Shown: piece after piece, positions 1,071-52,881 of the stretch
Numbering within the stretch: position 1 is the stretch's first letter
Layout: the number at the start of each line of letters is the position of its first letter
Assembly (NCBI RefSeq): GCF_000012845.1
Contig: NC_009615.1
Coordinates: 3,660,501-3,724,500, forward strand
Direction: 5' to 3'
Length of the DNA stretch: 64,000 nt
DNA from: Parabacteroides distasonis ATCC 8503
GTDB taxonomy: Bacteria; Bacteroidota; Bacteroidia; Bacteroidales; Tannerellaceae
Program-made: the position numbers and the translations under genes
Notes under the pieces: generated by a model
What the model saw: only the letters and a program-made list of their open reading frames with translations
What the model was told of the DNA's origin: nothing
The model's database searches: none

Positions 1071-1150
1071 TAGTACTTACTTTGGCCATGAAGTATATCT
1101 TCTCTGCCACTTGAAGTATATCTCCTGTGGTATTCGCAGTATAATTGCGG
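1071..1150. repeat. Degenerate 23-nt tandem array, copy 1 of the GAAGTATATCT family
   Basis: GAAGTATATCT occurs at 1090-1100 and again at 1113-1123, and a decayed copy GCAGTATAAT starts at 1136: a period of exactly 23 nt over three units. The left part (1071-1100), read on the minus strand, matches 44271-44304 (AGATATACTTCAT, then GGCCAA, then an AGTAnTAC segment). It lies between the tRNA-Gln terminator and the GH16 promoter. The rest of the 823-1235 gap holds only the tRNA unit and the GH16 promoter, with no believable gene. Confidence 0.7.
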
Positions 1151-1198
1151 GGATAACCTTGCGATGTGTTTTTCATCTACACTTTTATTTATTTTTCA

Positions 1199-1206
1199 TA
1201 TATTTG
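1199..1206 (+). promoter_or_regulatory. -7 box (TATATTTG) upstream of the GH16 gene
   Basis: An exact TAnnTTTG match 30 bases before the GH16 ATG, giving a leader of about 25 nt. I do not see a clean -33 TTG at the usual spacing. Confidence 0.55.
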
Positions 1207-1235
1207 TGGAAATTCTGATTTAAATCAATATTGTT

Positions 1236-2066
1236 ATGTCACGGTCATTTCTTTTGTTTGGTTTTATCCTATATAGTGTTTTCTTGAGCAGTCTGGCGAA
1301 TGCTAGTGATATCGATTTGTCTGCACCCATGGATAAAGGCGGGTGGAGATTGATATGGAGTGAGGAGTTTGACTATACGGGATTTCCTGATTCTACGAAA
1401 TGGTCTTATGATACGGAAGGTAATGTATATCAATGGGGAAATAACGAGGCTCAATATTATACATCCGGCAGAAAGGAGAACGCTTGGGTCTCGGATGGGG
1501 TATTGAGGATTACGGCCTTGAAAGAACCGATGGAAGGTCGTTCATATACATCGGCTCGTCTGATTACGAAAGGAAAAGGGGATTGGTTGTACGGACGTTT
1601 TGAGATTCGGGCGAAACTCCCGACCGGACGAGGGACATGGCCGGCCATCTGGATGCTTCCAACGGATTGGGAATACGGGGATTGGCCAAAAAGCGGGGAA
1701 ATAGATATTATGGAAAATGTGGGCTATGATCCCGATACGATCGTAGGTTCTTCGCATACGGAAAAATATAATCATGCGATCGGAACTCAAAAAAATGCTA
1801 AAATTGCGTGTCCGGATTGTTATAAAGCGTTTCACGTGTATGCCTTGGAATGGGAGGAAGATGAGTACCGGCTTTATGTAGATGATCAATTATACTTTAC
1901 ATTTAAGAACGAGGGGACAGGCTATGAGGTTTGGCCTTACGATAAACGCTTTCATATCTTGCTGAATCTGGCGATCGGTGGGAATTGGGGAGGCCAAAAG
2001 GGTATTGATGATTCTCTTTTTCCACATGTGTTTGAGATTGATTATGTGAGAGTTTATAAGAAGTAG
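1236..2066 (+). CDS. Secreted GH16 beta-glucanase (laminarinase-like)
   Basis: Glycoside hydrolase family 16 enzyme, a retaining endo-beta-glucanase of the laminarinase/lichenase type. Residues 1-23 form a Sec signal peptide (MSRSFLLFGFILYSVFLSSL) with no lipobox. The remaining ~250 residues are one jelly-roll domain: WRLIWSEEFDYTG near the start, substrate-cleft motif RGTWPAIWMLP, and the catalytic signature GEIDIMENVG with nucleophile E155, D157 and acid/base E160. The end HILLNLAIGGNWGG...FEIDYVRVYKK is typical of the family. The length of 276 aa is that of a single-domain enzyme with no binding module. It precedes the PUL regulator and probably belongs to the PUL, cutting a beta-glucan outside or in the periplasm. 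Exact linkage specificity (1,3 or 1,3/1,4) cannot be read from the sequence. Confidence 0.9.
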   Translation: MSRSFLLFGFILYSVFLSSLANASDIDLSAPMDKGGWRLIWSEEFDYTGFPDSTKWSYDTEGNVYQWGNNEAQYYTSGRKENAWVSDGVLRITALKEPMEGRSYTSARLITKGKGDWLYGRFEIRAKLPTGRGTWPAIWMLPTDWEYGDWPKSGEIDIMENVGYDPDTIVGSSHTEKYNHAIGTQKNAKIACPDCYKAFHVYALEWEEDEYRLYVDDQLYFTFKNEGTGYEVWPYDKRFHILLNLAIGGNWGGQKGIDDSLFPHVFEIDYVRVYKK

Positions 2067-2090
2067 GGTGTAACGTGATGTTTTTTTATT

Positions 2091-2098
2091 TACTTTTG
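2091..2098 (+). promoter_or_regulatory. -7 box (TACTTTTG) of the PUL regulator gene
   Basis: TACTTTTG fits TAnnTTTG and lies 24 bases after the GH16 stop. Transcription would begin near 2102-2105, which excludes the GTG at 2098 and makes the ATG at 2158 the likely regulator start. No clear -33 element is seen. Confidence 0.55.
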
Positions 2099-2157
2099 TG
2101 GTACATAACATTCTGTACTATATAGTGAAGGAGATACTTAAGAGGACGTTGGTTCGT

Positions 2158-5016
2158 ATGTTGATTTGTTGCGTTATTGCCTTGTTGTTTTGTATAACGG
2201 GGAATGCGAAGGTACCCTATATTCCTAAAATCATCAATTATTCCGTAAGCGATTACAAAGCGGGAAACCAGAATTGGGCCGTCTCCCAAGGTCCGGGAGG
2301 AAAGATGTATATTGGGAATAACCGGGGGCTTTTGGTTTTTGACGGTATTCACTGGGATCTTGTGAAATTACCGAATAATCTAGGTGTCCGTGCTTTGTAT
2401 ATATCGAAGGACGGACGTATTTATGTCGGCTCTTTCGAGGAGTTCGGGTATTTTGAGATGGATGACGAGAATGATCTGATTTATCATTCACTCAGTTCGT
2501 CTGAGATGAACGTCTATCTTAATAATGATGAGTTCTGGACGATTAATGAATATAAGGGTGAGATTTATTTTCAATCATTCCGGAGCTTTTTTATTTATGA
2601 CGGGGAAAAAGTAAGAAAAGGTGTATCCGACCTGTCTCCATTGTATATTTTCACATTAGACGATCATCTATACGTTCAGTTCATGGAGGGAGGAAGCTTT
2701 TGTCGAATGGATGACGGCCAGTTTACAGAGTTACTATCGAAAAAGGTTTTGGAGGATGATGTGGTTTCGGTCTTGCCATTTGATCATCAGCTATTATTGG
2801 TCTCGGCTCGTAGTGGATGTTTTATCTATGATGAGGTGCGTAAAAAATTGTCTGTGTGGAATACACCAGCCAATGAGATATTAAAGGAAGGGATCGCAAA
2901 CAGGGGAGTCATGATGAAAGATTCTACTTTTATTGTGGGTACGATTTCTAATGGGGTTGTAGCGATTAATAAGCAGGGGGAAACTTTGTGGCATATCAAC
3001 CGGGAGAATGGCTTGATTAATAATACGGTATTGAGAGTATTTGCTGATAATTCGGATAATTTATGGGTTACATTGGATAATGGTATCGCGCAGATACATG
3101 TGAATTCTCCGATCTATTTTTATGAACCGCTTGAGGCCCAGATTGGTATGGTGCATGATATGGTGATAGAGAAGGGTATTGTTTATTTAGCTACGAACCA
3201 AGGTCTTTATGCGTTATCTGAGAATGATAGTTATCCAACCTTGATTCCCGGTACTCAAGAACAGACATGGTATATCTCCGATGTCGGAAATCAACTGATT
3301 GCCGGACATAATACAGGTACCTTACAGCTAGAGGGCCGAAAAGCTACTCAGATACCGGGGCCCAATGGAGGGGGTACCGCATTACGTAAGACAATTATCC
3401 ATGGAAAGGAAGTTTTACTCCAGATGTCTTACCGTCCACTCAGTGTTTTCACCCGGGATATGGTTACTAATCGTTGGAAATTTAGCCATAATGTAGAAGG
3501 ATTCTCTAATTTGATCAAATCGTTTGAGGTTGACCCTACCGGCAATATATGGGCTAGCCATATGTATAAAGGTATCTATCGTCTTCGCTTGAATGAGGAT
3601 TTGAGGAGCGTGAAAGAGATGGAGTATATCGGAAAACTGGAGGAAGGTAATGAGAGTGGTACGATTAATGTAATGAAATTACGCGGACGTATTGTTTTCT
3701 CGGATGGGAGTAAGTTTTATACTTATGAGGATTTGACTGGAAAGATCGTTCCTTATGATTTGTTGAATGAGGATTTTCCCGAGTTAAGCGATACCTATCG
3801 GGTTGTTTCCTTGAATAATGATTTATATTGGTTTATCCGGAATTCGGAATATGTATTGTTAGGATATGAGTCTGGGCGATTCCAGTTAAAACAGCGTATT
3901 CCTTTTACTTTGTTTGATAATCCGACCATAGAGGATAGGGGAAATATTTATGTGGCTTCCGACGGGACGTCTTATTTTTGTCTAAACGGGGGGATCGCTC
4001 GTTATGACAGATACCGGAATTATGTGGATACGACTCGAGTTCCATTAAGTTTGTCGCAGGTAAGGGCCTATAATCGGCATGAAAATGAGTTCGCTCCGCT
4101 CCCTTGCAAGGGAGCGGACGCACCGGAAGCCGGTGCGTCCGTATTGAGTTATAGCTATAATACGATTCTTTTTAAGTTTTCGTATCCGGATTTTACGGGG
4201 CGCCGTTTCCTGATCTATTATAAACTGGACGGGTTTGATAATGAATGGATAGAAGGCACCAGTAATTTTCAACGGACTTATTCTAATTTACCGTATGGTA
4301 ATTTTGTGTTACATGCGGTTGTGAAAGACGATCGAGGAAAAGAGCTATCTTCTCTGTCTTATCCATTCAAGATCGAACGTCCATTTTATAGCTCTTGGTG
4401 GGCGCTGATCATCTATTTTGCTTTGTTTTTATGTATACTGGTCGTATTAGTGAGAATGTATACGATGTGGATTGTCATGCGTGAGAAAAAAGTTAACGAG
4501 GAGCAAAAGAGATTGCAAGAAGAGCAATTGAGGGCGCAAGAGCAATTAATTGTCAAGCTAGAGAATGAAAAATTAGAAAATGACCTTACTTATAAGAGTA
4601 AGGAATTAGCCAGTGCTACTTTGTCTGTTATCTCTCATAATGATTTCCTTGAAGGTCTAAAAAAGGAAATACAAGCTCAACAATTATCGGGAAGTTATAC
4701 GAAACGATTCTTCGATAAGCTCATCCGCATGATCGAAGAGAATATATCAGGCGAGGATGAATGGGCCATTTTCCAGACTAATTTCGATCGTATCCACGAA
4801 AAGTTCTTTACGAATCTAAAAGAGCGGTATCCCGATTTGACTCCGGGCGATTTACGATTATGCGCTTTATTACGTTTGAATATGCCAACTAAGGATATGG
4901 CTCGTATGCAAAATCTTTCCGTACGTGGTATCGAGGCGGCGCGCTATCGATTGCGTAAAAAACTAAATCTACCGGAGGGGCAAAGCTTGGTAGATTTCAT
5001 GATCCAGTTCCACTAA
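2158..5016 (+). CDS. Membrane-spanning sensor-regulator (beta-propeller, three-Y domain, LuxR-type HTH)
   Basis: Likely carbohydrate sensor controlling the downstream susCD operon, of the Bacteroidota type that joins an extracytoplasmic sensor directly to a DNA-binding domain without kinase or receiver. From ATG 2158: signal/anchor segment MLICCVIALLFCITGNA; two-component-regulator propeller repeats over ~600 residues (blades such as DNLWVTLDNGI, GNIWASHMYKGIYRL); a three-Y domain (IYYKLDGFDNEWIEG, FQRTYSNLPYGNF); one transmembrane helix (WWALIIYFALFLCILVVLV); a coiled coil rich in E/Q/K; and a C-terminal helix-turn-helix (DLTPGDLRLCALLRLNM...RGIEAARYRLRKKL). An in-frame double palindrome at 4095-4141 adds about 16 residues just before the three-Y domain. 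A GTG at 2098 would add 20 residues but overlaps the promoter. Role is inferred from architecture and position. Confidence 0.85.
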   Translation: MLICCVIALLFCITGNAKVPYIPKIINYSVSDYKAGNQNWAVSQGPGGKMYIGNNRGLLVFDGIHWDLVKLPNNLGVRALYISKDGRIYVGSFEEFGYFEMDDENDLIYHSLSSSEMNVYLNNDEFWTINEYKGEIYFQSFRSFFIYDGEKVRKGVSDLSPLYIFTLDDHLYVQFMEGGSFCRMDDGQFTELLSKKVLEDDVVSVLPFDHQLLLVSARSGCFIYDEVRKKLSVWNTPANEILKEGIANRGVMMKDSTFIVGTISNGVVAINKQGETLWHINRENGLINNTVLRVFADNSDNLWVTLDNGIAQIHVNSPIYFYEPLEAQIGMVHDMVIEKGIVYLATNQGLYALSENDSYPTLIPGTQEQTWYISDVGNQLIAGHNTGTLQLEGRKATQIPGPNGGGTALRKTIIHGKEVLLQMSYRPLSVFTRDMVTNRWKFSHNVEGFSNLIKSFEVDPTGNIWASHMYKGIYRLRLNEDLRSVKEMEYIGKLEEGNESGTINVMKLRGRIVFSDGSKFYTYEDLTGKIVPYDLLNEDFPELSDTYRVVSLNNDLYWFIRNSEYVLLGYESGRFQLKQRIPFTLFDNPTIEDRGNIYVASDGTSYFCLNGGIARYDRYRNYVDTTRVPLSLSQVRAYNRHENEFAPLPCKGADAPEAGASVLSYSYNTILFKFSYPDFTGRRFLIYYKLDGFDNEWIEGTSNFQRTYSNLPYGNFVLHAVVKDDRGKELSSLSYPFKIERPFYSSWWALIIYFALFLCILVVLVRMYTMWIVMREKKVNEEQKRLQEEQLRAQEQLIVKLENEKLENDLTYKSKELASATLSVISHNDFLEGLKKEIQAQQLSGSYTKRFFDKLIRMIEENISGEDEWAIFQTNFDRIHEKFFTNLKERYPDLTPGDLRLCALLRLNMPTKDMARMQNLSVRGIEAARYRLRKKLNLPEGQSLVDFMIQFH
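4095..4141. repeat. In-frame double palindrome inside the regulator gene
   Basis: Bases 4095-4118 are a perfect 24-nt palindrome (left half TCCGCTCCCTTG). Overlapping it, 4115-4126 and 4130-4141 form a perfect 12-bp stem with a 3-nt loop (left arm CGGACGCACCGG). Together they encode Ala/Pro/Gly-rich residues (APLPCKGADAPEAGAS), GC-rich and unlike the AT-rich flanks. It looks like a small mobile palindromic sequence inserted in a loop between the propeller and the three-Y domain while keeping the frame. Confidence 0.75.
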
Positions 5017-5020
5017 GAAA

Positions 5021-5078
5021 TTTCATAGTTATGAATGAAAAATATCATAACTATGAAATAAGAAAATCATAACTATGA
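5021..5078. repeat. Triple TCATAACTATGA motif downstream of the regulator
   Basis: TTTCATAGTTATGA (5021-5034) is the exact reverse complement of TCATAACTATGAAA (5045-5058), and TCATAACTATGA recurs at 5067-5078 in the second orientation, 22 nt after the second copy. It starts four bases after the regulator stop and could be a terminator hairpin, or operator sites for the regulator, since susC lies 270 bases downstream. The rest of the 5017-5350 gap is AT-rich with no gene. A TAGGTTTG at 5276-5283 could be the susC -7 box but lacks a matching -33. Confidence 0.6.
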
Positions 5079-5350
5079 GTTTTCCTTGTCATTTTTGTGT
5101 TCCCATATTTAGTGAGATGTGTTTAATAACATATAATGTTCTCCTTTTGAATTAACAAATGTATTATAACTGAAAATAAGATAATTAATATGTATTGCAG
5201 TAGTATAAAAGTAGTAATTTTCTGCTTGCGCAAGGCTTGCAGTAGTGTTGAAGTATACAAAAATTTGCCCTTTTTTAGGTTTGGGTGTTCATTTGCTTCA
5301 AATTTAATAATGAGTGTAAAAACAAATGTTCAACTTTAAAACTAGAATGA

Positions 5351-10043: not shown

Positions 10044-12209
10044 ATGAAACACATCGCATTACTAACTACTCTCTTATTATCCGCCAGCTTGCAAGCGGTG
10101 GAGAAACCTTACGACTATGTTTTCTTCGAGAATAGCTTGATGAAAGGGGATTACTTTTATTCTCAAGCGAAATATACCTCACCCTCTTGGATTAAAAATG
10201 CGAGACATCATCTTCCGGTTGCCGGCTCTGTCGCTTTTACGCCCGGCAATTCCTTGGAGCTTACCTATGTATCCGCTCCCGGTGGAGATTGGTATAGCGA
10301 GATACAATATTGCCCGGTCCGTGGCAATGACTTCTTTCGTGAGCCCTCTACGCTCTCTATGCAAGTGCGGTTGAGAGAGAGCATGAATGCTGCCGCTCTT
10401 CCCAATATCGCTATTCGTTATGCGGACAGCACGTATACCCAATACCTAAACCTGAGAAATTATCTGAAAGATACACGTCCCGGCGTATGGCATCCCGTAT
10501 CCATTCCATTGGAGGATTTCGGATTAAACGCCGTGAACGATACGAACATCAAGAAATTAGCGGCCGTAGCCCTTCGTCCCGGTACGGCCGATGGAAACGA
10601 ATATACGATTTATCTGGACGATATAGAGCTTTTGCCGGCTTCCCTCCCGTCGGTAAGTGCCTTAAACGCTCCGGTCTTGCAGGAAGCCAAGGCGTATGAG
10701 CGTCATATCGATATCAAATGGATTCCTCAATCGAAGGAGGATATAAAATACTATCGCATTTACCGTTCTTTCGACGGGATCACTTACCAGCCGGTCGCTG
10801 TCCGCCGCCCTTGGATGAATCGTTATACTGATTTCTTGGGAGAGGTTGGTAAAAAGGCTTATTATAAGGTGACGGCCGTGGATTATGCGCTGAATGAATC
10901 CAATGATTCCCAGACAGTCTCGGCCACTACCTATCCAATGACGGACGAGCAATTGCTGGATATGGTACAGGAAGCGAACTTCCGTTATTATTGGGAGGGA
11001 GCGGAGCCGAACAGCGGTCTTGCCCGTGAGAATATTCCCGGACGGAATGATATGATCGCTACCGGGGCTTCCGGCTTCGGTATCATGGCGATCGTGGCGG
11101 GTATCGAACGGGGATTTATCACCCGGGAAGAGGGCGTACAGCGTTTCTTGAAAATCACTTCTTTCTTGGAGAAAGCGGATAAATTCCATGGGGCGGTCTC
11201 TCACTTTATCGATGGGACAACCGGGAAGACAGTCGCTTTCTTCGGCCCGAAAGATAATGGAGGTGATTTGGTGGAGACCTCTTTCTTATTCCAAGGGCTG
11301 TTAACGGCTCGTCAATATTTCAACCAAGAGAATGACAAGGAGAAACAAATCCGTAAGAGCATCGATAATCTATGGAAAAACGTGGAATGGAGCTGGTATA
11401 AGCAATTTAAGGACAGCCCATATCTATATTGGCACTGGTCTCCAGATCAGGCGTGGGTGATCAATCATAAATTGATCGGCTGGAATGAGACCATGATTAC
11501 CTATATGTTGGCTATCATGGGGCCGAAATACGGAATCTCTCCGGAGATGTATTATAGCGGCTGGGCCAGCCAAGAGGAGTATGCGCAAGAATACCGTGCC
11601 GATTGGGGGCGTGTAGAAGATGGTAAGATGTATACGAATGGCAATACTTATTATGGGGAGAACTTGAAAGTAGGTGTCTCTAATGGAGGTCCTCTTTTCT
11701 TTATCCATTACTCCTATCTCGGGCTGGACCCACATAAGTTCACGGATAAGTACACGAATTATTTCGAGAACAACCAGAAAATGGCAAAGATCAATCAACG
11801 GTATTGTATCGAGAATCAAGGGGGGTATGTTGGTTATGGAGAAGATTGTTGGGGATTGACCGCCAGCGATTTCGCTTGGAACTATCAAGCTCAGGAGCCG
11901 ATGCCGCACAGGGATAACGGAACGATGGCACCTACGGGCGCTCTGGCTTCTTTCCCTTATACGCCGGACGCTTCCATGAAAGCCTTGCGGAATTATTATC
12001 GTAACCACGGCAGCTTCTTATGGGGTGAGTACGGTTTCCGGGATGCTTTCAACTTGACTGTAAATTGGGTATCTCCCTTATTTATGGGATTGAATCAAGC
12101 GCCTGTAACGGTTATGATCGAGAATTACCGTACGAATCTGTTGTGGAACCTTTTCATGAGCCATCCGGATGTCCAGAAAGGTATCCAAAAGATTCAATCC
12201 ATAAAATAA
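10044..12209 (+). CDS. GH144-type beta-1,2-glucan hydrolase with N-terminal module and Fn3 domain
   Basis: The C-terminal ~415 residues (about 305-718) are the (alpha/alpha)6 glucoamylase-like domain of GH144, a family of beta-1,2-glucanases. Motifs: FRYYWEGAEPNSGLARE, ATGASGFGIMAIVAGIERGF, KDNGGDLVETSFLFQGLL and YLYWHWSPDQAW. Before it come a signal peptide (MKHIALLTTLLLSASLQA), a ~190-residue beta-sandwich module that may bind glycan (ending YTIYLDDIELLP), and an Fn3 domain (~215-298, IDIKWIPQSKEDIKYYRIYR). No lipobox, so probably periplasmic. It is the first of two GH144 genes here; the other lacks the N-terminal modules. Family knowledge: GH144 contains endo enzymes and an exo sophorose-releasing enzyme characterised from P. 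distasonis; which mode this one has cannot be told from sequence. Confidence 0.88.
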   Translation: MKHIALLTTLLLSASLQAVEKPYDYVFFENSLMKGDYFYSQAKYTSPSWIKNARHHLPVAGSVAFTPGNSLELTYVSAPGGDWYSEIQYCPVRGNDFFREPSTLSMQVRLRESMNAAALPNIAIRYADSTYTQYLNLRNYLKDTRPGVWHPVSIPLEDFGLNAVNDTNIKKLAAVALRPGTADGNEYTIYLDDIELLPASLPSVSALNAPVLQEAKAYERHIDIKWIPQSKEDIKYYRIYRSFDGITYQPVAVRRPWMNRYTDFLGEVGKKAYYKVTAVDYALNESNDSQTVSATTYPMTDEQLLDMVQEANFRYYWEGAEPNSGLARENIPGRNDMIATGASGFGIMAIVAGIERGFITREEGVQRFLKITSFLEKADKFHGAVSHFIDGTTGKTVAFFGPKDNGGDLVETSFLFQGLLTARQYFNQENDKEKQIRKSIDNLWKNVEWSWYKQFKDSPYLYWHWSPDQAWVINHKLIGWNETMITYMLAIMGPKYGISPEMYYSGWASQEEYAQEYRADWGRVEDGKMYTNGNTYYGENLKVGVSNGGPLFFIHYSYLGLDPHKFTDKYTNYFENNQKMAKINQRYCIENQGGYVGYGEDCWGLTASDFAWNYQAQEPMPHRDNGTMAPTGALASFPYTPDASMKALRNYYRNHGSFLWGEYGFRDAFNLTVNWVSPLFMGLNQAPVTVMIENYRTNLLWNLFMSHPDVQKGIQKIQSIK

Positions 12210-12290
12210 TAATGCGACAAAAAACAACAATAACTTATCTTGAACATAATATGCTGGCATGTAATAGAATAAATAGGGCTATCGCTTCTT

Positions 12291-12380
12291 GGAAAAAACA
12301 TGTACGTGTTTTCTCGGAAACATGTACGTCTTTTTCGGAAAACACGTACATGTTTTTCCGGAAAGACGTAGGAGTTTCTA
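12291..12380. repeat. 22-nt-period GTAC array, copy 1 of the ACATGTACG family
   Basis: Units beginning GGAAA carry a central GTAC at 12302, 12324 and 12346 and a GTAG at 12368, exactly 22 nt apart. Each unit is close to a palindrome (AAAACATGTACGTGTTTT). The block 12291-12361 matches 44127-44194 closely (GGAAAAnACATGTACGTG, then CGGAAACATGTACG, then GAAAACACGTAC). It lies between the GH144 gene and the start of the next enzyme gene and is read through in frame, but I take the downstream ATG as the start. Confidence 0.75.
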
Positions 12381-12409
12381 GCGCTTCCTTAAAAGCCTAC
12401 AATAAGTGT

Positions 12410-14506
12410 ATGCTCGTATCACTCCTTGCCTCTTTCTTCGCGGTCTCTACCGTAAACGCTCAAGTAAACGAGCGGGGAGATTCCGTGATCGTGATCAAAG
12501 GGCAGGTAAGCGATTACTATATTACCGTATCCCCAGAGCATTTTCTGGAAGGTACGATTACCGGACCGGACGGCAAGCCCTTGGAAGGCGCTACAGTGAT
12601 GTTCACGGCTAGCCCGGTTCATTATACCACCGATGCGACAGGCTATTATAAGATACAAGCAAGCCGCTACGATCATGAGTTATTCGTGTATTATCCGGGG
12701 ATGAAGTACGCTTATCGCACGTTTGGCGATAACGATACGAAAATAGATATCCGGATGGAGGCCGATCCTCGTGATGTACGGGTAAAAGCTCCTCAGCAAG
12801 CCACCCGCTGGTTCGACGCTACGGCCGATCATCCCTCTACCTATTGCAACCCGATGAATTTGAGCTACTGCTTCCGGGCGAATCTGCCGGATTTGGTGAA
12901 GAATGGCTCTTTCCGCTCTACGGCTGATCCGATGATGGTCATGTATAAAGGGGAATATTTCCTTTTCGCCACGAATCAAGCCGGATTCTATTATTCCAAG
13001 GACTTGAGTAATTGGGAGTTTGTATTCGCCGGTTTCCAACGTTATCCGGAAGATGACGACTTGTGCGCTCCGGCCGCTTTCGTAAGTGGAGATACCTTGT
13101 TCTATACCGGTTCTACCTATGCGGGATTGCCTATTTGGTATAGTACGAACCCGAAAAGCGGAAAGTTCAAGCGGTATGTGGAGAAAACGGCTCTTCCTAG
13201 TTGGGACCCGGCATTTTTGCTGGATGATGACGGACGTTTGTATATGTACTATGGTTCAAGTAATGAGTTCGCTTTGAAGGGAGTGGAATTGGATCGCCGT
13301 GATTTCCACCCGATCAGCAAGATCCAAGAGATCATGATGCTGCGCCCGGAAGAACACGGATGGGAACGTTTCGGGATGAACAATGACGATAGTACGACTT
13401 TAGCGCCTTTTACGGAAGGAGCTTTCGTGACCAAGCATAACGGTAAATATTATTTCCAATACGGTGCGCCGGGAACGGAGTTCAAGGTCTATGCGGATGG
13501 AGTTTATGTATCCGACAAACCGATGGGCCCGTTCACCTACCAGAAACATAACCCGATGAGCTATAAGCCGGGAGGTTTCGTACAAGGTGCCGGCCATGGT
13601 GGTACTTTCGAGGATGCGTATGGTAATTACTGGCATGTGGCTACTTGCATGCTTTCTTTGAAATATAAGTTTGAGCGTCGTATTGGTTTGTACCCTACGG
13701 CATTCGATAAGGATGGCGTGATGTATTCGAACACCGCTTTCGGGGACTATCCTTTGCTTACGCCGAAAGGGAAGGTAGATGATATCGCGAATACGTTTTC
13801 CGGCTGGATGTTGCTATCGTATGGAAAACCGGTGATGGCCTCTTCCATGGATAGTACGTTAGTACCAGAGAATGTAACGGATGAGAGCATGCGTACTTTC
13901 TGGTCCGCCCGCTCGGGAGAGCCGGGTGAATGGCTCCAGATCTCTTTAGAGGGATTGAAAGAGGTACGTGCGATCCAGTTGAACTATTACGAGCATAGAG
14001 CCGTACAGCATAATAAGGCGATGGACTTGTATCATCAATATCGTATTTATCATTCTATAGATGGACAAAATTGGGAATTGGTAGTCGATAAGAGCGATAA
14101 CGACAAGGACGTTCCGCACGACTATATCGAGTTGCGTGAGCCTTTAAAAACCCGTTATTTGAAAATAGTGAACGAACATGTGCCTTCGGGCAACTTCGCT
14201 ATGTCTGGATTTCGTATTTTTGGAAATGGTTTGGGAGAAGCTCCCGCCGCCGTTAAGAACTTAAAGGTGGAACGCTCAAAAGCGGATAAGCGGAATGCGA
14301 TGATCACTTGGGAGCCGGTAAAAGAGGCGTACGCTTACAATATCTATTATGGTATAGCGCCGGATAAATTGTACAACAGTATCACGGTACTGGGAGATAC
14401 GATGTACGATTTTAGAGGCTTGGATAAGGATACGGACTATTATTTCTCGATCGAGGCATTGGGAGAGAGCGGCCGTTCACCGATGAGTAAAGTATTGAGA
14501 CGATAA
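12410..14506 (+). CDS. GH43-like beta-propeller glycosidase with discoidin and Fn3 domains (copy 1)
   Basis: Secreted five-bladed propeller enzyme related to GH43. From ATG 12410: signal peptide MLVSLLASFFAVSTVNAQ, a carboxypeptidase-regulatory-like domain (~45-125, EGTITGPDGKPLEGATVMF), the propeller (~145-470: STADPMMVMYKGEYFLF, SWDPAFLLDDDGRLYMYYG, EGAFVTKHNGKYYFQYGAPG), an F5/8-type C domain (~480-600) and a final Fn3 domain (~610-698, NAMITWEPVKEAYAYNIYYG). The Asp, Asp and Glu of these motifs sit where GH43 has its catalytic triad. It is a paralogue of 20488-22281, which lacks the first domain. The frame stays open upstream to 12065, through the preceding gene's end and a repeat array, so longer starts (e.g. 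12212) are possible but lack a signal peptide. Substrate unknown. Confidence 0.8.
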   Translation: MLVSLLASFFAVSTVNAQVNERGDSVIVIKGQVSDYYITVSPEHFLEGTITGPDGKPLEGATVMFTASPVHYTTDATGYYKIQASRYDHELFVYYPGMKYAYRTFGDNDTKIDIRMEADPRDVRVKAPQQATRWFDATADHPSTYCNPMNLSYCFRANLPDLVKNGSFRSTADPMMVMYKGEYFLFATNQAGFYYSKDLSNWEFVFAGFQRYPEDDDLCAPAAFVSGDTLFYTGSTYAGLPIWYSTNPKSGKFKRYVEKTALPSWDPAFLLDDDGRLYMYYGSSNEFALKGVELDRRDFHPISKIQEIMMLRPEEHGWERFGMNNDDSTTLAPFTEGAFVTKHNGKYYFQYGAPGTEFKVYADGVYVSDKPMGPFTYQKHNPMSYKPGGFVQGAGHGGTFEDAYGNYWHVATCMLSLKYKFERRIGLYPTAFDKDGVMYSNTAFGDYPLLTPKGKVDDIANTFSGWMLLSYGKPVMASSMDSTLVPENVTDESMRTFWSARSGEPGEWLQISLEGLKEVRAIQLNYYEHRAVQHNKAMDLYHQYRIYHSIDGQNWELVVDKSDNDKDVPHDYIELREPLKTRYLKIVNEHVPSGNFAMSGFRIFGNGLGEAPAAVKNLKVERSKADKRNAMITWEPVKEAYAYNIYYGIAPDKLYNSITVLGDTMYDFRGLDKDTDYYFSIEALGESGRSPMSKVLRR

Positions 14507-24390: not shown

Positions 24391-24418
24391 GTAGAGACGG
24401 GGCACGCCCCGTCTCTAC
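24391..24418. repeat. GTAGAGACGGGGC palindrome, copy 2
   Basis: GTAGAGACGGGGC (24391-24403) and its exact complement GCCCCGTCTCTAC (24406-24418) with a 2-nt AC loop, 32 bases after the hypothetical gene. The same sequence recurs at 25956-25980. It can act as a terminator hairpin, but the identical sequence elsewhere makes it a repeat family. Confidence 0.85.
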
Positions 24419-24662
24419 AATTGGATGAAAAGGCTTATGCGTGTTCCGGTTAGAATATCAATGTGACAATTTGTAAACTGAAGTCCTTGAGAATCGATTA
24501 TTTCGGGCCAAAGTACGTCTCGTCTCCTAAAAACGAAAGAAAAAAACAGCAATCGTCTATCCGCTAGTGACTTGTTGAAAAACGGCCTTTTATTCTAGCG
24601 AAATTAATTCATCCTATCTCATATCTTATGCCTTATGGCCCAGTCGTTAGGGGGCAACAATG

Positions 24663-24781
24663 CCCATTATAAGGTAGTCATATCGCCCATTATGACCATA
24701 TGTGTAGCCTATCGTGACTATATGTGTGGGTTTACGCCTGTACAGGCGTGGGTGAACGGGACTATATGTGTAATCTAACGA
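24663..24781. repeat. 22-nt-period array with central palindrome
   Basis: CCATTAT recurs at 24664 and 24687 (23 nt apart). GACCATATGTGT at 24694, GACTATATGTGT at 24716 and GACTATATGTGT at 24760 lie 22 and then 44 nt apart; the missing unit between the last two is occupied by a perfect 16-nt palindrome ACGCCTGTACAGGCGT (24734-24749). It lies in the 24360-25056 gap, which otherwise holds the palindrome at 24391, AT-rich sequence and the YitT promoter, and no credible gene. Confidence 0.65.
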
Positions 24782-25023
24782 GGGTATTCTTATCGAAAAA
24801 CGGGTCTTTTTGTGTGGAAAAGGCGTATAAATGCCTGCTTTCTCCTTCATGTTCTCGTTTATAGAGCTTTTCTAAATAAAGGTGATGTTATATAAAAGGG
24901 GTTATTACTGATAAATAGTTAACATTCCTTGGCTTTTGCTTACGTCTCTGTAAATAGGGGAAAGTGAACCATTATATTTCCGGCTAAATATAAGGTGAAG
25001 CATTTCCTATCAATAACTTTCAT

Positions 25024-38814: not shown

Positions 38815-38817
38815 GAA

Positions 38818-44023: not shown

Positions 44024-44126
44024 CCATAAGGTGTTTTGTTGATAGTGAAAAATACAGTAAGTATTTAAAATATACGTATTGATAATGTATTTATAATCAG
44101 ATTGATAAAAAGTTGATGATGTTTCC

Positions 44127-44194
44127 GGAAAAACATGTACGTGTTTTTCCGGAAACATGTACGAGAATTTGTGAAAACACGTACGTGTTTTGGG
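44127..44194. repeat. 22-nt-period GTAC array, copy 2 of the ACATGTACG family
   Basis: GTAC occurs at 44137, 44159 and 44181, exactly 22 nt apart, inside near-palindromic units (AAAACATGTACGTGTTTT). The block parallels 12291-12361 over about 70 bases, including the join CGGAAACATGTACG. It sits in the 44024-44390 gap, whose other contents are the repeat at 44271 and AT-rich sequence, with no gene. Confidence 0.75.
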
Positions 44195-44270
44195 AAACAG
44201 ATAATGAGGTTTTAAATGCATTTGGAAAAATGTACAATAACTATGTGGAAAATAAGCACTGTATCCCTAA

Positions 44271-44310
44271 GAGATATACTTCATAGGCCAAGGAAGTAGT
44301 ACTTCTCGTG
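44271..44310. repeat. 23-nt-period array, copy 2 of the GAAGTATATCT family (inverted relative to copy 1)
   Basis: AGATATACTTCAT, GGCCAA and an AGTAGTACTTC segment follow the reverse complement of 1071-1100. ATACTTC at 44276 and GTACTTC at 44299 are 23 nt apart. The copy lies 77 bases beyond a member of the ACATGTACG family, so two repeat families share one gap. Confidence 0.6.
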
Positions 44311-46669: not shown

Positions 46670-46677
46670 TATTTTTG
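46670..46677 (+). promoter_or_regulatory. -7 box (TATTTTTG) of the serine acetyltransferase gene
   Basis: Matches TAnnTTTG. Transcription starting near 46681-46684 excludes the in-frame ATG at 46645 and favours 46705. Confidence 0.6.
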
Positions 46678-46704
46678 CGCATTATAAAGAATATTCCGCA
46701 AATA

Positions 46705-47604
46705 ATGGATATACAGAGGCATAGTAGCGTATTGGGCGATACGGTGGAGAAGCTGTCGGATGAGGCATCGTATAAACAATTGTTCCATGCGTACAGGGAT
46801 GAGGAGGCGCTGCCCTCGGGCGAGGTGCTGAAAGAGATCATCGATCTATGCCGTGCGATCCTGTTCCCCGGTTATTATGGGAATGCCCGTATCAGTAAAC
46901 AGACGATCCGTTTTCATACGGGCGTAAATGTTGAGACTCTTCATTCTTTATTATCCAAGCAGGTTTATGCGGGACTTTGTTTTGCGGATACATCTTGCGT
47001 GACTTGCCCGGAAGAAAAGATCTCCGCTGAGGCAGAGGCTATTTCGGAGGCTTTCATCTCTACGCTTCCGGAGATTCGCGGTCTGCTGGCTACGGATGTG
47101 GAGGCGACTTTCAATGGCGATCCCGCCGCTCAAAATCTAGGTGAGGTCATATTTTGTTATCCCGGTTTCCGGGCGATCGGTAATTACCGGATCGCCCATC
47201 AATTGTATAAGCTCGGGGTTCCTTATATTCCTCGTATGATTACGGAGATGGCACATTCCGAGACCGGTATCGATATCCATCCGGGCGCGAAGATCGGTCA
47301 TCATTTCTCGATAGACCACGGGACGGGTACGGTGATCGGCGAGACGAGCGTGATCGGCAATTACGTCCGAATCTTTCAGGGCGTCAGCTTGGCGGGAGAG
47401 AAACTTCCCCCCGATGAGAACGGTAACGCTATCCGTGGCGTAGCCCGTCATCCTATCTTGGAAGATCATGTGACAGTATATTCTAATTCCACCTTAATCG
47501 GTAAAATCCGGATTGGCGGAGGGGCTACGATATGTGGTAACGTCTGGATAGCGGAGGATGTACCGGCAGGGAGTACGGTTACACAATTGAAAATTGAGAA
47601 TTGA
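46705..47604 (+). CDS. cysE: Serine O-acetyltransferase
   Basis: 299-aa cytoplasmic enzyme that acetylates serine for cysteine synthesis. An N-terminal helical domain (~1-180) precedes a left-handed beta-helix of hexapeptide repeats: GIDIHPGAKIGHHFSIDHGT, GTVIGETSVIGNYVRIFQGV, VTVYSNSTLIGKIRIGGGAT. The catalytic His is in IDHGTG. The start 46705 is set by the promoter. The last residues VTQLKIEN and the stop are encoded inside a repeat (47585-47610), so the natural C-terminus has been replaced or extended. Confidence 0.92.
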   Translation: MDIQRHSSVLGDTVEKLSDEASYKQLFHAYRDEEALPSGEVLKEIIDLCRAILFPGYYGNARISKQTIRFHTGVNVETLHSLLSKQVYAGLCFADTSCVTCPEEKISAEAEAISEAFISTLPEIRGLLATDVEATFNGDPAAQNLGEVIFCYPGFRAIGNYRIAHQLYKLGVPYIPRMITEMAHSETGIDIHPGAKIGHHFSIDHGTGTVIGETSVIGNYVRIFQGVSLAGEKLPPDENGNAIRGVARHPILEDHVTVYSNSTLIGKIRIGGGATICGNVWIAEDVPAGSTVTQLKIEN

Positions 47605-47731
47605 AAATTATCAAGAGGGTAGCCGGAAGGAGATCGAAGCATGTCAGAGAGCGAAATGAGAATAATTAATAATAAACAACGTAATACGCAATTGGGAATA
47701 ATTTTCAATTCTCAATTCTCAATTTTCAATT
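47585..47731. repeat. Inverted-repeat element of the AATTGAGAATTG type between cysE and the methyltransferase
   Basis: The left end 47585-47610 (AATTGAAAATTGAGAATTG and on) is the reverse complement of the right end 47698-47731, apart from one extra CTCAATT-type unit on the right. The 87-base interior is not repeated and shows no gene. The left end encodes the last cysE residues; the right end stops four bases before the next ATG. A single copy of the end sequence recurs at 51461-51480. It is MITE-like: inverted ends, no coding capacity. Confidence 0.8.
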
Positions 47732-47734
47732 AAA

Positions 47735-49285: not shown

Positions 49286-51467
49286 ATCATCTTTATTCAT
49301 AAGCCTATGTCTGATTTTATTAACGATGTCGATTACCGCCCAAGATAAGCAACTCTCCTTGCACGACTTGATTCCGGGAGGAAAAACGTATAGCCGCTTC
49401 GTACCTCGTGACTTGAAACAGTTACGATGGTGCGGGGACGAGTACTTATATGTTAAGGGAGATAGCGTGTTAGGAGCTAAGCCGGGGAAAAAAGAAGAGG
49501 TCCTTTTTTCGTTGGAAAGACTGAATGGGGCCTTGACGGTGGCAAACCTACAGACGGTTGGTTCCTTGCCTAGCTTTTCGGTACCCTATGAAAGTGGTTC
49601 GGTCTTGGCTTTTACTAGCAAACAGCACCGGATTCATTATGACTATAAGAAGAATAAGGTAGTCGCTGATTATGCTTTGAAGAATAACTGGGCGAATTAT
49701 GACTTTTGTCCGGCTACGAATAACTTAGCTTTTACGGAGGGAAACAATGTGCATATTTTATCCCCGGATGGACGAAATACGATTGTTACACGTGAAACAC
49801 AGGATGGAATCGTATGCGGACAGGCTGTCCATCAACGGGAGTTCGGGATTACGAAAGGTATGTTTTGGTCTCCTAAAGGTTCGGCTCTAGCGTTTTATCG
49901 TATGGATGAGCGTATGGTGACCGCTTACCCGCTGGTGAATATCGATACTCGTTGCGCTACGCCGGTTCCTCATAAATATCCGATGGCTGGAATGAAGAGC
50001 CATGAGGTTACGGTGGGTGTCTATCAGGTAGCTACCGGGCAGACGGTTTGGTTGGAGACAGGCTTGCCGAAAGAGAAATATTTAACAAATATCGCTTGGA
50101 GTCCGGATGAGAAGAGTATTTATATCGCTGAGTTGAATCGTGAGCAGAACGAGATGCATTTGGTGCGGTACTCTGCCTTGACGGGAAAGAAAGAGGCTGA
50201 TCTGTTTACCGAGACGGATCGTTGTTATGTGGAGCCGCAGCATCCCGTGCTTTTCTTGCCGAACGATCCGGATAAGTTTATCTGGCAGAGTGAGGCGGAT
50301 GGCTATAACCATCTATATCTGTATGATACGACTGGAAAGGAATTAAGGAAGCTAACCGGTGGGGAATGGGTGGTTACCAAGGTGCTAGGCTTTAGCAAAG
50401 ACGGAAATAAGGTGATTTTCGAGGGAACGGCACCTCATCCCGTATCTCCGAATATGCAAGGAACGGGGATGCAACGTTATATTTGGGAGACGGATTTGAG
50501 AACGGGTGATATCATGAATTGCTTGAGTTGGAAAGTGGGCGTGCACCGTTGGTTGCTGAGTCCCTCCGGCGAATATGCGATTGATTATGTAAGTTCTCCT
50601 TCTACCCCGAGGGATATCGATTTAATCCGTGTAAAGGACGCTAAGGTGATTTCTACCTTACTTTCCGCTCCGGATCCTTTTAAATCGTATCGGATGCCGC
50701 AGATCAAGGTTGGATATATCCTTGCTGCCGATGGTAAGACTCGCTTGAATTACCGGTTGACTTTACCGCCGGATTTGGATGAGACGAAGAAGTATCCTAC
50801 GATTGTCTACGTCTATGGAGGCCCGCATGCCCAATTGGTTACGGGCGACTGGCAAAACGGGGCTCGTGGCTGGGATCTCTATATGGCACAAAGAGGTTAT
50901 GTGATGTTTTCCGTGGATAGCCGTGGCTCGGCGAACCGCGGGCATGCTTTTGAGAGCGTGATTCATCGTAATTTGGGTATCAACGAGATGGCGGATCAAG
51001 TGAAGGGGGTCGAGTTCTTGAAATCCTTGCCTTATGTGGATGCCGACCGTATCGGGGTACATGGCTGGAGTTATGGCGGTTTTATGACAACGAACTTGAT
51101 GCTGACGTATCCGGAGATCTTTAAGGTGGGCGTGGCCGGAGGGCCGGTTATCGACTGGAGCAATTACGAGATCATGTATGGCGAGCGTTATATGGATCGC
51201 CCGCAGGATAATCCGGAAGGTTATAAGAACGCGAACCTGAAACTGAAGGCCGGCAATCTGAAAGGCCATCTGCTGATGATACATGGGGATATCGATCCGG
51301 TGGTAGTGTGGCAACACAGCCTAGGTTTCTTGAAGGCTTGCGTAGAGGCTGATACGTATCCGGATTACTTTGTTTATCCTCGTCATGAGCATAACGTGAC
51401 CGGTAAGGACCGTCCGCATTTGCATGAGAAGATTACGAGGTATTTCGATGATTACTTGAAAAATTGA
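49275..51467 (+). CDS. Dipeptidyl peptidase IV-family serine protease (S9B)
   Basis: Secreted or periplasmic exopeptidase that releases X-Pro or X-Ala dipeptides. From ATG 49275: signal peptide MRIKSSLFISLCLILLTMSI, an eight-bladed propeller (~60-470) and the alpha/beta-hydrolase domain (~475-730) with GWSYGGFMTTNL (nucleophile S599), an acid in MIHGDIDPVVVW and a catalytic His in YPRHEHNVTG. Length 730 is typical for Bacteroidota DPP-IV; proteins of this kind work with asaccharolytic peptide use. ATG 49266 would overlap more of the upstream gene. Its last codons (LKN-stop) lie in a copy of the AATTGAGAATTG repeat. Confidence 0.93.
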   Translation: MRIKSSLFISLCLILLTMSITAQDKQLSLHDLIPGGKTYSRFVPRDLKQLRWCGDEYLYVKGDSVLGAKPGKKEEVLFSLERLNGALTVANLQTVGSLPSFSVPYESGSVLAFTSKQHRIHYDYKKNKVVADYALKNNWANYDFCPATNNLAFTEGNNVHILSPDGRNTIVTRETQDGIVCGQAVHQREFGITKGMFWSPKGSALAFYRMDERMVTAYPLVNIDTRCATPVPHKYPMAGMKSHEVTVGVYQVATGQTVWLETGLPKEKYLTNIAWSPDEKSIYIAELNREQNEMHLVRYSALTGKKEADLFTETDRCYVEPQHPVLFLPNDPDKFIWQSEADGYNHLYLYDTTGKELRKLTGGEWVVTKVLGFSKDGNKVIFEGTAPHPVSPNMQGTGMQRYIWETDLRTGDIMNCLSWKVGVHRWLLSPSGEYAIDYVSSPSTPRDIDLIRVKDAKVISTLLSAPDPFKSYRMPQIKVGYILAADGKTRLNYRLTLPPDLDETKKYPTIVYVYGGPHAQLVTGDWQNGARGWDLYMAQRGYVMFSVDSRGSANRGHAFESVIHRNLGINEMADQVKGVEFLKSLPYVDADRIGVHGWSYGGFMTTNLMLTYPEIFKVGVAGGPVIDWSNYEIMYGERYMDRPQDNPEGYKNANLKLKAGNLKGHLLMIHGDIDPVVVWQHSLGFLKACVEADTYPDYFVYPRHEHNVTGKDRPHLHEKITRYFDDYLKN

Positions 51468-51480
51468 GAATTGAAAATTA
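51461..51480. repeat. Single AATTGAGAATTG end copy at the DPP-IV/purD junction
   Basis: AAATTGAGAATTGAAAATTA is identical to bases 47591-47610 of the inverted-repeat element. It overlaps the stop codon of the DPP-IV gene and lies nine bases before the purD ATG. Confidence 0.8.
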
Positions 51481-51488
51481 GAAGAGAT

Positions 51489-52760
51489 ATGAATATATTG
51501 TTATTAGGCTCTGGTGGGCGTGAGCATGCGATCGCTTGGAAGATCGCTCAAAGCCCGAAAGTTGATAAGTTATTTATCGCTCCCGGTAATGCGGGAACTG
51601 CGTTGGTAGGAACGAACGTGGATATCAAAGCGGATGATTTTGCCGCTATCAAGGATTTTGTGTTGGCGAACCAAGTGAATATGGTCGTGGTAGGTCCCGA
51701 GGACCCATTGGTGAAGGGTGTTTATGATTATTTCAAGAAGGATGAGGCATTAAGCTCCATCCCCGTGATCGGCCCGAGTGGGGAAGGTGCCCAATTGGAA
51801 GGTAGCAAGGATTTCGCCAAGGCGTTCATGATGCGTCATAATATCCCGACTGCTCGTTATAAGAGTATTTCCGTTGAAAACTTAGAGGAAGGTTATGCGT
51901 TCTTGGAATCTCTTTCCGCTCCTTATGTATTGAAAGCGGATGGATTGGCTGCCGGTAAAGGGGTACTGATTATCGATAACTTGGAGGAAGCCAAGAAAGA
52001 GCTGGGAGATATGCTGGGCGGAATGTTTGGCGACGCGAGCAAGACGGTCGTGATCGAGGAGTTCTTGGATGGTATCGAATGCTCCGTATTCGTCTTGACG
52101 GATGGCAACGATTACAAGGTGCTTCCGGTAGCGAAAGATTATAAGCGTATCGGCGAGGGCAATACGGGCTTGAATACCGGTGGCATGGGAGCTGTTTCTC
52201 CGGTTCCTTTCGCTGATGAGGTCTTTATGGCGAAGGTGGACGAGCGTATTATCCGTCCTACCGTAGAGGGATTGAAAGCGGAGCATATCGATTATAAAGG
52301 TTTCATCTTCTTGGGTCTGATCAATGTGAAGAATGAGCCGATGGTTATAGAATACAATTGTCGTATGGGTGATCCGGAGACGGAGGTAGTCATGCTTCGT
52401 ATCCAAAGCGATTTGGTTGATTTGCTGGAAGGGGTAGCGGAAGGTAATTTAGCGGGGCGTACATTGGTACAAGATCCTCGTGCGGCGGTTACGGTTATGT
52501 TGGTAAGCGGCGGTTATCCGGAGGCTTACGAGAAAAATAAGGTAATCACGGGATTGGATGGCGTATCCTCGAACAATATAGTGTTCCATGCCGGAACGAA
52601 GCTGGTAGACGGCCAGATCCTGACGAATGGCGGCCGTGTGATCGCGGTCAGTTCGTATGGGGCTACTAAGGAAGAGGCTTTGGCCCAATCTTTCGCCGGA
52701 GCTAAGCAGATCGATTTCGATAAGAAGTATTTCCGTCGGGATATCGGGTTTGATTTATAA
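51489..52760 (+). CDS. purD: Phosphoribosylamine-glycine ligase
   Basis: Second step of de novo purine synthesis: joins glycine to phosphoribosylamine using ATP. 423 aa. ATP-grasp enzyme with N-terminal [20 protein letters not shown], glycine-rich [35 protein letters not shown] and [15 protein letters not shown], and [19 protein letters not shown] 51489 is preferred: the frame extends back to 51471 only through a TTG within the repeat. Complete and ordinary. Confidence 0.96.
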
Positions 52761-52773
52761 TTGCGTTTATCGA

Positions 52774-52881
52774 GAACGCCGGTCGGCATTTGCAGTGAAC
52801 GTCAGTCGGCGTTTACGGTGAGTACCGGTCGGCGTTCACTACGAACGTCGCTCCGGTGCTTGCACTAACGCAGGTACCGTA
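52774..52881. repeat. 23-nt tandem array, GAACG-CGGTCGGCGTT family
   Basis: Four units follow one another: 52774-52796, 52797-52819, 52820-52842 and 52843-52866 (23, 23, 23 and 24 nt), and a partial fifth reaches 52881. Consensus GAACGTCGGTCGGCGTTTGC, with substitutions in each unit. GC-rich compared with the flanks. It lies between purD and the next membrane-protein gene. Confidence 0.8.

Follow-up and report, generated by a model that had tools for sequence, protein, structure and literature searches.

Intergenic repeat arrays of Parabacteroides distasonis and some related gut bacteria share a spacing of mostly 21-23 nt that points to a ruler at the DNA level

The window, i.e., the whole stretch of 64,000 nucleotides of the Parabacteroides distasonis genome that was analysed, carries a number of short tandem arrays (Table 1), five of which had been described in an earlier note as lying in gaps between genes, differing in consensus and sharing a strict 22-23 nt period. 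The best self-match lag is 22 for three of these stretches (12291-12380, 24663-24781, 44127-44310) and 23 for two (1071-1150, 52774-52881), and in 5/5 it was reached by none of 500 dinucleotide shuffles per stretch; the regularity thus stands, as two neighbouring lags rather than as a single strict period. Tandem Repeats Finder, an unbiased tool under which the period might have disappeared, lists three of the five at score 30 (12295-12377, 44122-44199, 52774-52821), misses the 1071 and 24663 arrays, and adds a period-22 array absent from the earlier list (5014-5078). Other parts of the description need amendment. The arrays at 12296-12377 and 44131-44190 are built from one unit (AAACATGTACGTGTTT type), so the consensus is not a different one at every locus; only 44131-44190 is an array within 44127-44310, since 44272-44302 is a piece of the 1071 family in inverted orientation; and 12296-12377 falls within an open frame with a TTG start (12065-14506) and is intergenic only if the gene of this frame starts at the ATG at 12410. 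The opposition of a common mechanism to "one mobile element" is also not supported as worded, as four of the five arrays belong to dispersed repeat families, though to several: A (12296, 44131), B (1071) and the element termed here the 22-cell element (from 24464). The B family occupies 9 more places in the P. distasonis genome and has copies in other Parabacteroides genomes, and no further copy of the 52774 array was detected in the sampled part of the genome.

Table 1. Arrays, element parts and flanking repeats in the window
Feature	Position	Strand	Remark
B-family array, 23-nt period, GAAGTATATCT core	1071-1143	+	Self-match; strongest 1089-1143
Sixth 22-nt array (TAAGAAAATCATAACTATGAAA)	5014-5078	+	Tandem Repeats Finder
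Imperfect 17-nt direct repeat flanking the 12296 array, left copy	12279-12295	+	Copies 76% alike
A-family array, four 16-nt near-palindromes, AAACATGTACGTGTTT type	12296-12377	+	Units exactly 22 nt apart
Imperfect 17-nt direct repeat flanking the 12296 array, right copy	12378-12394	+	
22-cell element, conserved leader, starts TGACAATTTGTAAACTGAAGTCC	24464-24640	+	Border to cells approximate
22-cell element, 22-nt cells	24641-24790	+	Earlier note's 24663-24781 array
22-cell element, tail	24791-24879	+	End estimated from 14 other copies, each 415-418 nt long
A-family array, three units	44131-44190	+	Units 22 nt apart
Inverted B-family fragment	44272-44302	-	84% to 1070-1100
Array, four 23-nt cells (GAACGCCGGTCGGCATTTGCAGT)	52774-52865	+	

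In an unbiased sample of 800 kb of the P. distasonis genome (262 intergenic segments, lags 8 to 60, self-match threshold of score 12), lags 21, 22 and 23 were represented by 4, 20 and 8 segments, respectively, and by 0 segments in shuffles, with no segment at lags 20, 24 or 25, a further excess at lags 44 and 46, and 0 or 1 segment at each of the remaining lags. The genome-wide autocorrelation proposed earlier as a check thus returned, in the sampled genome, a sharp excess at 21-23 nt over shuffles instead of the lack of any excess at 22-23 nt that was to speak against the claim, and the peak recurs in other Parabacteroides and in Bacteroidaceae and Prevotellaceae. Among non-redundant intergenic arrays (counted after removal of AATTCTC-type 7-nt microsatellites via a lag-7 self-match filter, and with masked stretches omitted), the best lag is 21-23 in 23/32 in the P. 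distasonis genome, 13/24 in other Parabacteroides, 13/27 in Bacteroidaceae, Prevotellaceae and Muribaculaceae, 1/19 in Paludibacteraceae and further Bacteroidales, and 1/6 in Flavobacteriia and relatives; 200 kb of E. coli yielded no array of whatever lag, and the 21-23 nt peak was seen neither in E. coli nor in Flavobacteriia. L051-L070, picked in part for A hits, are excluded from rates and included in the tests of A-unit spacing, covariation and similarity, whole-array pairing, RNA strand and dyad spacing. The lag counts support the earlier proposal as far as a ruler common to unrelated sequences is concerned. In a survey of 39 arrays compared with the sampled 26% of the genome, 18 had neither a copy of the array nor a repeated flank, leader or tail, at strict E-value cut-offs and with some of the 18 resembling others by eye; therefore, one mobile element does not account for the ruler. 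Overall, the array spacing in Parabacteroides and some related gut bacteria points to a shared ruler at the DNA level. The helical repeats fitted for E. coli in vivo are 11.08 and 11.60 bp/turn (PMC1762422), two turns corresponding to 22.2-23.2 bp if this E. coli value, not the host's own, is applied.

In the A family, 67 of 70 spacings between successive units are exactly 22. Similarity between units is no higher within an array than between arrays (12.20 vs 12.40 of 16), and for this reason local slippage, one of the two causes suggested earlier, misfits this family, even though whole-unit gain and loss occurs elsewhere. No covariation is seen inside A units, pairs 4-13 and 6-11 having fewer Watson-Crick pairs than independence predicts, and a long hairpin in which entire A arrays pair was rejected (best-axis score 13.17 vs 13.10 in a null that draws units from the same family and so tests pairing order only). 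Six A arrays have a tail of ~55 nt in common, and a profile built from these copies found no additional place. Genome G023 lacks the 12296 array at the corresponding site and has a single copy of the imperfect 17-nt repeat there. In general, target-site duplications were found at 0/47 A arrays at a score of at least 9 (1.2 expected, in a test that demands near-perfect repeats). An IS5-type terminal repeat lies within 200 nt of 3/24 A arrays, with ~1 expected by our own estimate.

The 22-cell element is a multi-copy unit of ~416 bp, consisting of a conserved, non-repetitive leader, approximately seven 22-nt cells without spacers, and a tail. Its leader model has 28 matches in the P. distasonis genome and 7 to 28 in each of six Parabacteroides genomes, and of the 15 copies in which both end motifs are present, 14 measure 415-418 nt (the TGTCA end motif is not seen in the tail of the 24464 copy). 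There is no open frame: in all of 21 copies, each frame is interrupted by two or more stops. Aligned copies retain their spacing at 27-30% divergence and are nearly free of indels: for each indel event the leader has 471 substitutions and the cells have 156, compared to 18.6 over 45 pairs of ordinary orthologous intergenic regions. This comparison covers 21/31 copies (most of those omitted differ in cell content), uses non-independent pairs, and rests on different ways of aligning element copies and orthologous pairs. Inside the cells, conservation is periodic at 22 nt (p 0.014 for this period; not significant for the maximum over all periods, p 0.32), and the leader displays neither a helical nor a 22-nt period of conservation.

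Arrays also turn over. Indels between sister genomes measure 22, 44, 45 and 23 nt, and orthologous arrays present 4 indel events to 32 substitutions, mostly unit-sized, the event at L019, a weak array, being the exception. The array beside purD is ~51% identical (ungapped, best offset) to the array at L072 while the gene itself is 93.8% identical, and thus divergence can be fast enough to mask descent.

As to dyad symmetry, stems 6 bp long or longer recur at 11, 22, 33, 44 and 55 nt in 12, 10, 9, 8 and 7 cases, vs 0.7, 2.0, 0.7, 1.7 and 0.3 in shuffles, and outside arrays in only 2, 2, 1, 0 and 2, with no 22-nt palindrome phase there. This dyad-spacing test was used in place of whole-unit palindromicity of folded consensus units (p of 0.05 or below in only 24/65 intergenic arrays), a test weak because spacers vary. 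An added peak appears at 54 nt and comprises 8 pairs, 7 of which lie outside arrays.

Such symmetry could belong to transcribed RNA, the arrays being hairpins such as terminators or 3' stabilisers. Predicted folding of the arrays is indeed much stronger than that of shuffles (median z -3.9; control -0.66, 80/468 segments), a single copy of the 22-cell element also exceeds its shuffles in foldability on either strand (z -2.8, -2.2), and there is a mild lean toward 3' ends (10/46 convergent, 19/174 co-directional and 5/67 divergent gaps, convergent gaps also being longer). However, the sense strand has no advantage in predicted stability (33:35 over 70 non-redundant arrays, co-directional gaps, p 0.82), the arrays lie a median of 124 nt from the upstream stop, Rfam at gathering scores recognizes only one tRNA within the window, and the consensus fold of the best-conserved family (21 aligned copies, 455 columns) amounts to -9.2 kcal/mol, with 7/28 predicted pairs having at least one two-sided change and no convincing covarying stem. 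We therefore consider the RNA explanation improbable: the lack of strand bias and of convincing covarying stems, along with a spacing that stays constant as letters change, favours action at the DNA level.

As to the nature of this action, our tentative proposal, which we judge somewhat more likely to be wrong than right, is that both the BrickBuilt-like elements and the other arrays are phased putative protein-binding sites. The arrays would be mostly dyad-symmetric cells between genes, two helical turns (21-23 bp) apart, some within several unrelated, short, non-coding dispersed families and others where no copy is detected, and each would most likely be a row of putative sites at which a DNA-binding protein, dimeric or oligomeric and possibly transposase-like or architectural, contacts one face of the helix. 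While the letters and the unit number of many arrays may change fast, the spacing would remain constant since only cells in phase would allow the protein, or a copying step that it guides, to work. We infer the protein, the cause of phasing and any regulatory effect from the pattern; of the two causes suggested earlier, one-face binding would remain the better. Unrelated sequences, on the other hand, are hard to reconcile with one sequence-specific protein.

A mutational ruler would likewise produce most of the pattern, with no function needed: arrays would originate and expand through replication slippage or template switching at hairpins, in patches whose length is dictated by an enzyme, ~11 nt copied and folded back giving a 22-nt period. 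The strong self-complementarity of the arrays, the stems recurring each 11 nt, the 11-nt units whose arms are inverted in contigs of Prevotellaceae type (L118-L121, L123), the whole-unit gains and losses between genomes, the turnover of arrays, and the near-identical copies L018, L280 and L281 of the 22-cell element, in which a single cell is multiplied approximately five times, are all in agreement with it. Slippage, however, normally yields many periods, and none was found at the neighbouring lags; the A units, no more similar within than between arrays, and the spacing kept by diverged copies of the 22-cell element also speak against it, and we consider it a serious but somewhat unlikely explanation. 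A little less likely still, in our view, are selfish, non-autonomous elements of the BrickBuilt type, a 22/23-nt minisatellite descending from few founders, with the ruler reflecting common descent and fast divergence. The leader-array-tail anatomy, the common A tail, the presence and absence of an A array between genomes, the divergence at purD, fast enough to be able to mask descent, and the 23-nt repeats, leader and tail reported for BrickBuilt (PMC4596501) speak for such elements; the 18 arrays with no copy detected in the sampled part of the genome speak against them, as do the lack of BrickBuilt-type terminal repeats in 31/31 copies of the 22-cell element and the scarcity of indels in its aligned copies, which decay should accumulate. 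A chance pattern, or a reader primed to see repeats, could be suspected from the two arrays that Tandem Repeats Finder missed, and is refuted by the lag counts, far beyond shuffles and with Flavobacteriia and E. coli as controls; we give it next to no credence.

Phased protein binding may have a broader version, which is speculative and in our estimate rather unlikely: a general mechanism of Bacteroidales, a protein lattice or a protein-guided copier, would write and keep two-turn dyad arrays between genes whatever their sequence; about two dozen unrelated arrays within 860 kb of one genome would then share one geometric code, with the 416-bp element as the most conserved docking site. A fixed period across unrelated sequences is a signature of geometry, not of homology. 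If protein phasing is true, intergenic DNA of a major gut lineage carries a nucleoprotein system read by spacing; if copying is true, an enzymatic ruler in the birth of repeats is revealed. The A family and the 22-cell element allow a direct test of either reading.

Plasmid iterons are direct repeats approximately two helical turns apart that bind protein on one face. The arrays resemble them in a spacing close to a whole number of helical turns (by the E. coli value) and in putative protein binding on one face, and differ in being chromosomal, present at many loci, often palindromic, and variable in sequence by locus. Tn7-type ends bound by TnsB (PMC8649781) also have several ~22-bp protein sites per element, putative in our case, but here the cells are in the middle of a non-coding unit, not at its ends. 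Another parallel is presented by REP/BIME palindromes with their RAYT transposases, described as short, dispersed and extragenic, and sometimes tandem (PMC3733652); they differ in that the spacing here is fixed at 22 nt and the P. distasonis genome has 0 matches to the Y1 transposase (PF01797, RAYT), for which 5/14 control genomes are positive, and RAYT-driven REPs were therefore rejected. A literature search found no paper on the Parabacteroides pattern by title or abstract start, weak evidence of absence given narrow exact terms and few subscription journals, and it did yield the BrickBuilt MITE of Porphyromonas gingivalis. BrickBuilt (PMC4596501) is intergenic, has 23-nt repeats with leader and tail, is present in 19 copies in strain ATCC 33277 with strain-variable unit number, and is predicted to form long stem-loops; its copies form a single sequence family whose terminal repeats are IS5-like (GAGACC...). 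The Parabacteroides arrays, in contrast, comprise many unrelated units at 21-23 nt, some without a detected copy, with a leader that keeps its spacing and with other ends; with up to 2 mismatches allowed, the IS5-type terminal repeats GAGACCTTTGCA/TGCAAAGGTCTC occur in 0/31 copies of the 22-cell element. What the two have in common is the order Bacteroidales, the 22-23-nt tandem cells without spacers, the leader and tail (here in the 22-cell element, with a tail also in six A arrays), the variable unit number, and the intergenic position.

The 22-23 nt periodic pattern is real. In the window (bases 3,660,501-3,724,500 on a single contig of 4,811,379 bp), the 22-23 nt period read earlier in five stretches is recovered as their dominant lag, the spacing of self-matches (see table), the best lag of each stretch being reached by none of 500 shuffles, and Tandem Repeats Finder lists three of the five arrays, plus an extra one. 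The period also passed the check proposed beforehand, a genome-wide intergenic autocorrelation. Forty 20-kb pieces taken at regular steps (800 kb) contain 66.6 kb of intergenic sequence in 262 segments, each 80 nt or longer. Ungapped self-matches scoring at least 12 occur in 4, 20 and 8 of these segments at lags 21, 22 and 23, in 10 at lag 44 and in 4 at lag 46, with 0 or 1 at each remaining lag between 8 and 60, versus a single match overall, at lag 9, in the shuffled set. Coding-labelled sequence from all 800 kb (simple gene caller) gave 6, 4 and 2 matches at lags 21, 22 and 23 and 5 at 44, counts in which one masked run enters at every lag, multiples of 3 are generally raised, and some matches are A-type arrays within spurious frames. 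AATTCTC/AATTTTC microsatellites, which occur in the window and at several intergenic loci and match at lags 14 and 21, were removed from the lag counts.

The majority of unit sequences among the catalogued arrays appear unrelated, and a common ruler across arrays of unlike sequence stands. Gene context is mildly skewed to convergent gaps (arrays in 10/46 convergent, 19/174 co-directional and 5/67 divergent). Palindromes of at least 6 bp are also enriched with centres 54 nt apart (8 versus 1.0 in shuffles; intergenic DNA of L011-L070 and window), mostly outside arrays.

Positions of arrays and accompanying features (window, or sampled locus L)
Position	Feature	Lag or unit (nt)
Window 1071	B-family array	23
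Window 12296 (12291-12380)	A-family array	22
Window 24663	Array of the 22-cell element	22
Window 44131	A-family array	22
Window 52774	Array	23
Window 5014-5078	Extra array, CATAACTATGA units	22
L014:8605-8646, L162:9245-9320	Similar CATAACTATGA units	
Window near 24400, L040:17555, L261	GAGACGGGGC(G/A)CGCCCCGTCTC-type palindrome	
Window 47700-47731	AATTCTC/AATTTTC microsatellite	7
L061:8044-8655	Segment with A array, apparently inverted	
L018:19337-19504	Fast-changing array	
L062:9922	Nearly unchanged array	
L062:247	Array differing by one cell	
L019:13724	Weak array	
L029:15122, L050:8124	Copyless arrays with coding label	
L092:1866-1948, L114:1955-2041, L114:9750-9807	Intergenic units, other Bacteroidales	33

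The exclusion of a mobile element, as made in the earlier note, fails for four of the five loci. Differing consensus sequences had been claimed as well, which is not the case for the arrays at 12296 and 44131, which have the same unit (A family); the latter, thought to extend from 44127 to 44310, stops near 44190, and beyond it lies an inverted fragment of the B family. Nor is the placement of all arrays between genes entirely secure, the 12296 array lying inside an open frame that begins with TTG, though the likelier start is an ATG at 12410, 32 nt past the array. The A unit, AAACATGTACGTGTTT, has 72 forward and 75 reverse matches in this genome at up to 2 mismatches, many sites of this nearly palindromic unit being counted on both strands; when the pattern is reversed, the matches number 0 and 2. 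Counts exceed 10 in five of 38 Parabacteroides genomes. Among 105 units from this genome and the sister genome G004 (P. distasonis NM39_I3, locus L071; places and counts coincide), 67 of 70 successive spacings are exactly 22. As A units are no more alike within one array than between arrays, we suggest that whole arrays dispersed, rather than growing in place. Six copies have a tail of about 55 nt in common, whose profile found no additional place in the sampled sequence. In another genome (G023), the sequence at the 12296 site is continuous and the array absent, and in ATCC 8503 the array sits between imperfect 17-nt repeats. An intergenic segment with an A array, bounded by copies of CTTATTTATGGAATAAGG, appears inverted between this genome (L061) and G004 (L181), and looks like an invertible element. 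The B family has 9 more places in this genome and is present in other Parabacteroides. Units like CATAACTATGA recur at other places in this genome, and look-alikes were seen by eye in another Parabacteroides, Marseille-P3160.

The array at 24663 forms the central part of the 22-cell element, in which a conserved leader precedes about seven 22-nt cells and a tail follows them. Of this element 31 copies were gathered from five genomes; 15 of them both start with TGACA and end with TGTCA, and 14 of these measure 415-418 nt and one 426 nt. A leader model built from 27 copies had matches in 10 of 38 genomes: 28 in this genome (three with E >1e-8), 21 in G004, 20 in G017, 17 in G032, 12 in G023, 7 in G010, one each in G013 and G034, and 19 weak ones (E 1e-5 to 1e-3) in each of G020 and G001. 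This leader also adjoins cells of differing sequence. A recurrent intergenic palindrome of GAGACGGGGC(G/A)CGCCCCGTCTC type, variable between genomes, is probably another small mobile element.

Arrays change variably between genomes. Orthologous intergenic sequences were compared in 57 pairs, with anchors 94.7% identical on average; in pairs >80% identical, indels of 5 nt or more measure 22, 44 and 45 nt within arrays, and 7, 8, 15, 59, 63, 86, 181 and 198 nt outside; a 23-nt difference in L062 is one cell of other sequence. Orthologous arrays hold 4 indels and 32 substitutions. One array in L018 has 18/57 sites changed, versus 6/150 outside it, with zero indels between sister genomes, and one in L062 only 1/74. 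The purD-adjacent array still repeats every 23 nt in L072 (0.41 at that lag) but has kept about 51% of its letters (at the best offset without gaps; no more than 42% in shuffles), against 93.8% identity for purD. Copies of the 22-cell element diverge by 27-30%, with 471 substitutions per indel event in the leader and 156 in the cells (non-independent pairs among 21 of 31 copies, the majority of those omitted having other cell content), and ordinary intergenic orthologues (n=45) have 18.6.

The arrays are strongly self-complementary (median z -3.9 versus -0.66 for ordinary segments), and their stems recur at 11-nt steps, a consequence of any palindromic 22-nt unit. If selection acted on RNA, G-U pairs would be expected to favour the transcribed strand; sense and antisense stand at 33 to 35 in the 70 non-redundant arrays that lie between co-directional genes, and at 264 to 201, a lean to sense, in ordinary segments (n=468). 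The 22-cell element, the best-conserved family, folds weakly as RNA (-9.2 kcal/mol, 455 columns), with two-sided change in 7 of 28 predicted pairs; its 21 aligned copies hold neither a convincing covarying stem nor an open frame.

With one array counted per sequence family and each assigned its best lag, 21-23 nt accounts for 23/32 arrays in this genome, 13/24 in other Parabacteroides, 13/27 in Bacteroidaceae, Prevotellaceae and Muribaculaceae, 1/19 in Paludibacteraceae and unnamed Bacteroidales and 1/6 in Flavobacteriia and relatives, with a few matches at lags 21 and 23 in Flavobacterium and zero arrays of any lag in 200 kb of E. coli, the control sets being smaller (24 and 18 kb intergenic versus 74 kb for this genome) and absence from a single species carrying little weight in samples of mostly 20-200 kb per genome. 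Some Prevotellaceae-type contigs (L118-L121, L123) instead share an element of 11-nt units with inverted arms: about five TACCATTATAA units and then about five inverted ones, ATGGTATTTTA, a long hairpin of 11-nt period. The 33-nt units of other Bacteroidales are likewise a multiple of 11.

We tentatively read the arrays as putative protein-bound sites phased at two helical turns: the protein would occupy cells spaced 22-23 bp apart, two turns at the helical repeats of 11.08 and 11.60 bp fitted in vivo for E. coli (PMC1762422). The chief rival, a ruler set by mutation, seems less likely, and origin from a BrickBuilt-type element less probable again. Three observations slightly weaken the protein reading and strengthen both rivals. 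An indel in the weak array of L019 is not unit-sized. Among 12 orthologous pairs in which an array reaches score 11, it is present in both genomes in 3, confined to this genome in 6 and confined to the sister in 3. Finally, the count of arrays lacking a copy has limits: among 39 intergenic arrays, 16 recur as arrays (E 1e-4) and 11 have a recurring flank (E 1e-6) within the sampled 26% of the genome, and 18, including the 52774 array, have neither there, an upper bound, as one of them (in L020) is a member of the leader family, a few look like other arrays by eye, and two carried a coding label in gene calling.

As to known systems, a REP/RAYT reading is unlikely, the Y1 transposase missing from this genome. 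BrickBuilt of P. gingivalis is the nearest known relative: PMC4596501 describes it as a 23-nt minisatellite within a MITE, and notes repeats of 22, 23 and 41 nt for strain W83. While the terminal repeats given there for BrickBuilt are absent from the 22-cell element (0/31 copies), the anatomy is common to both.
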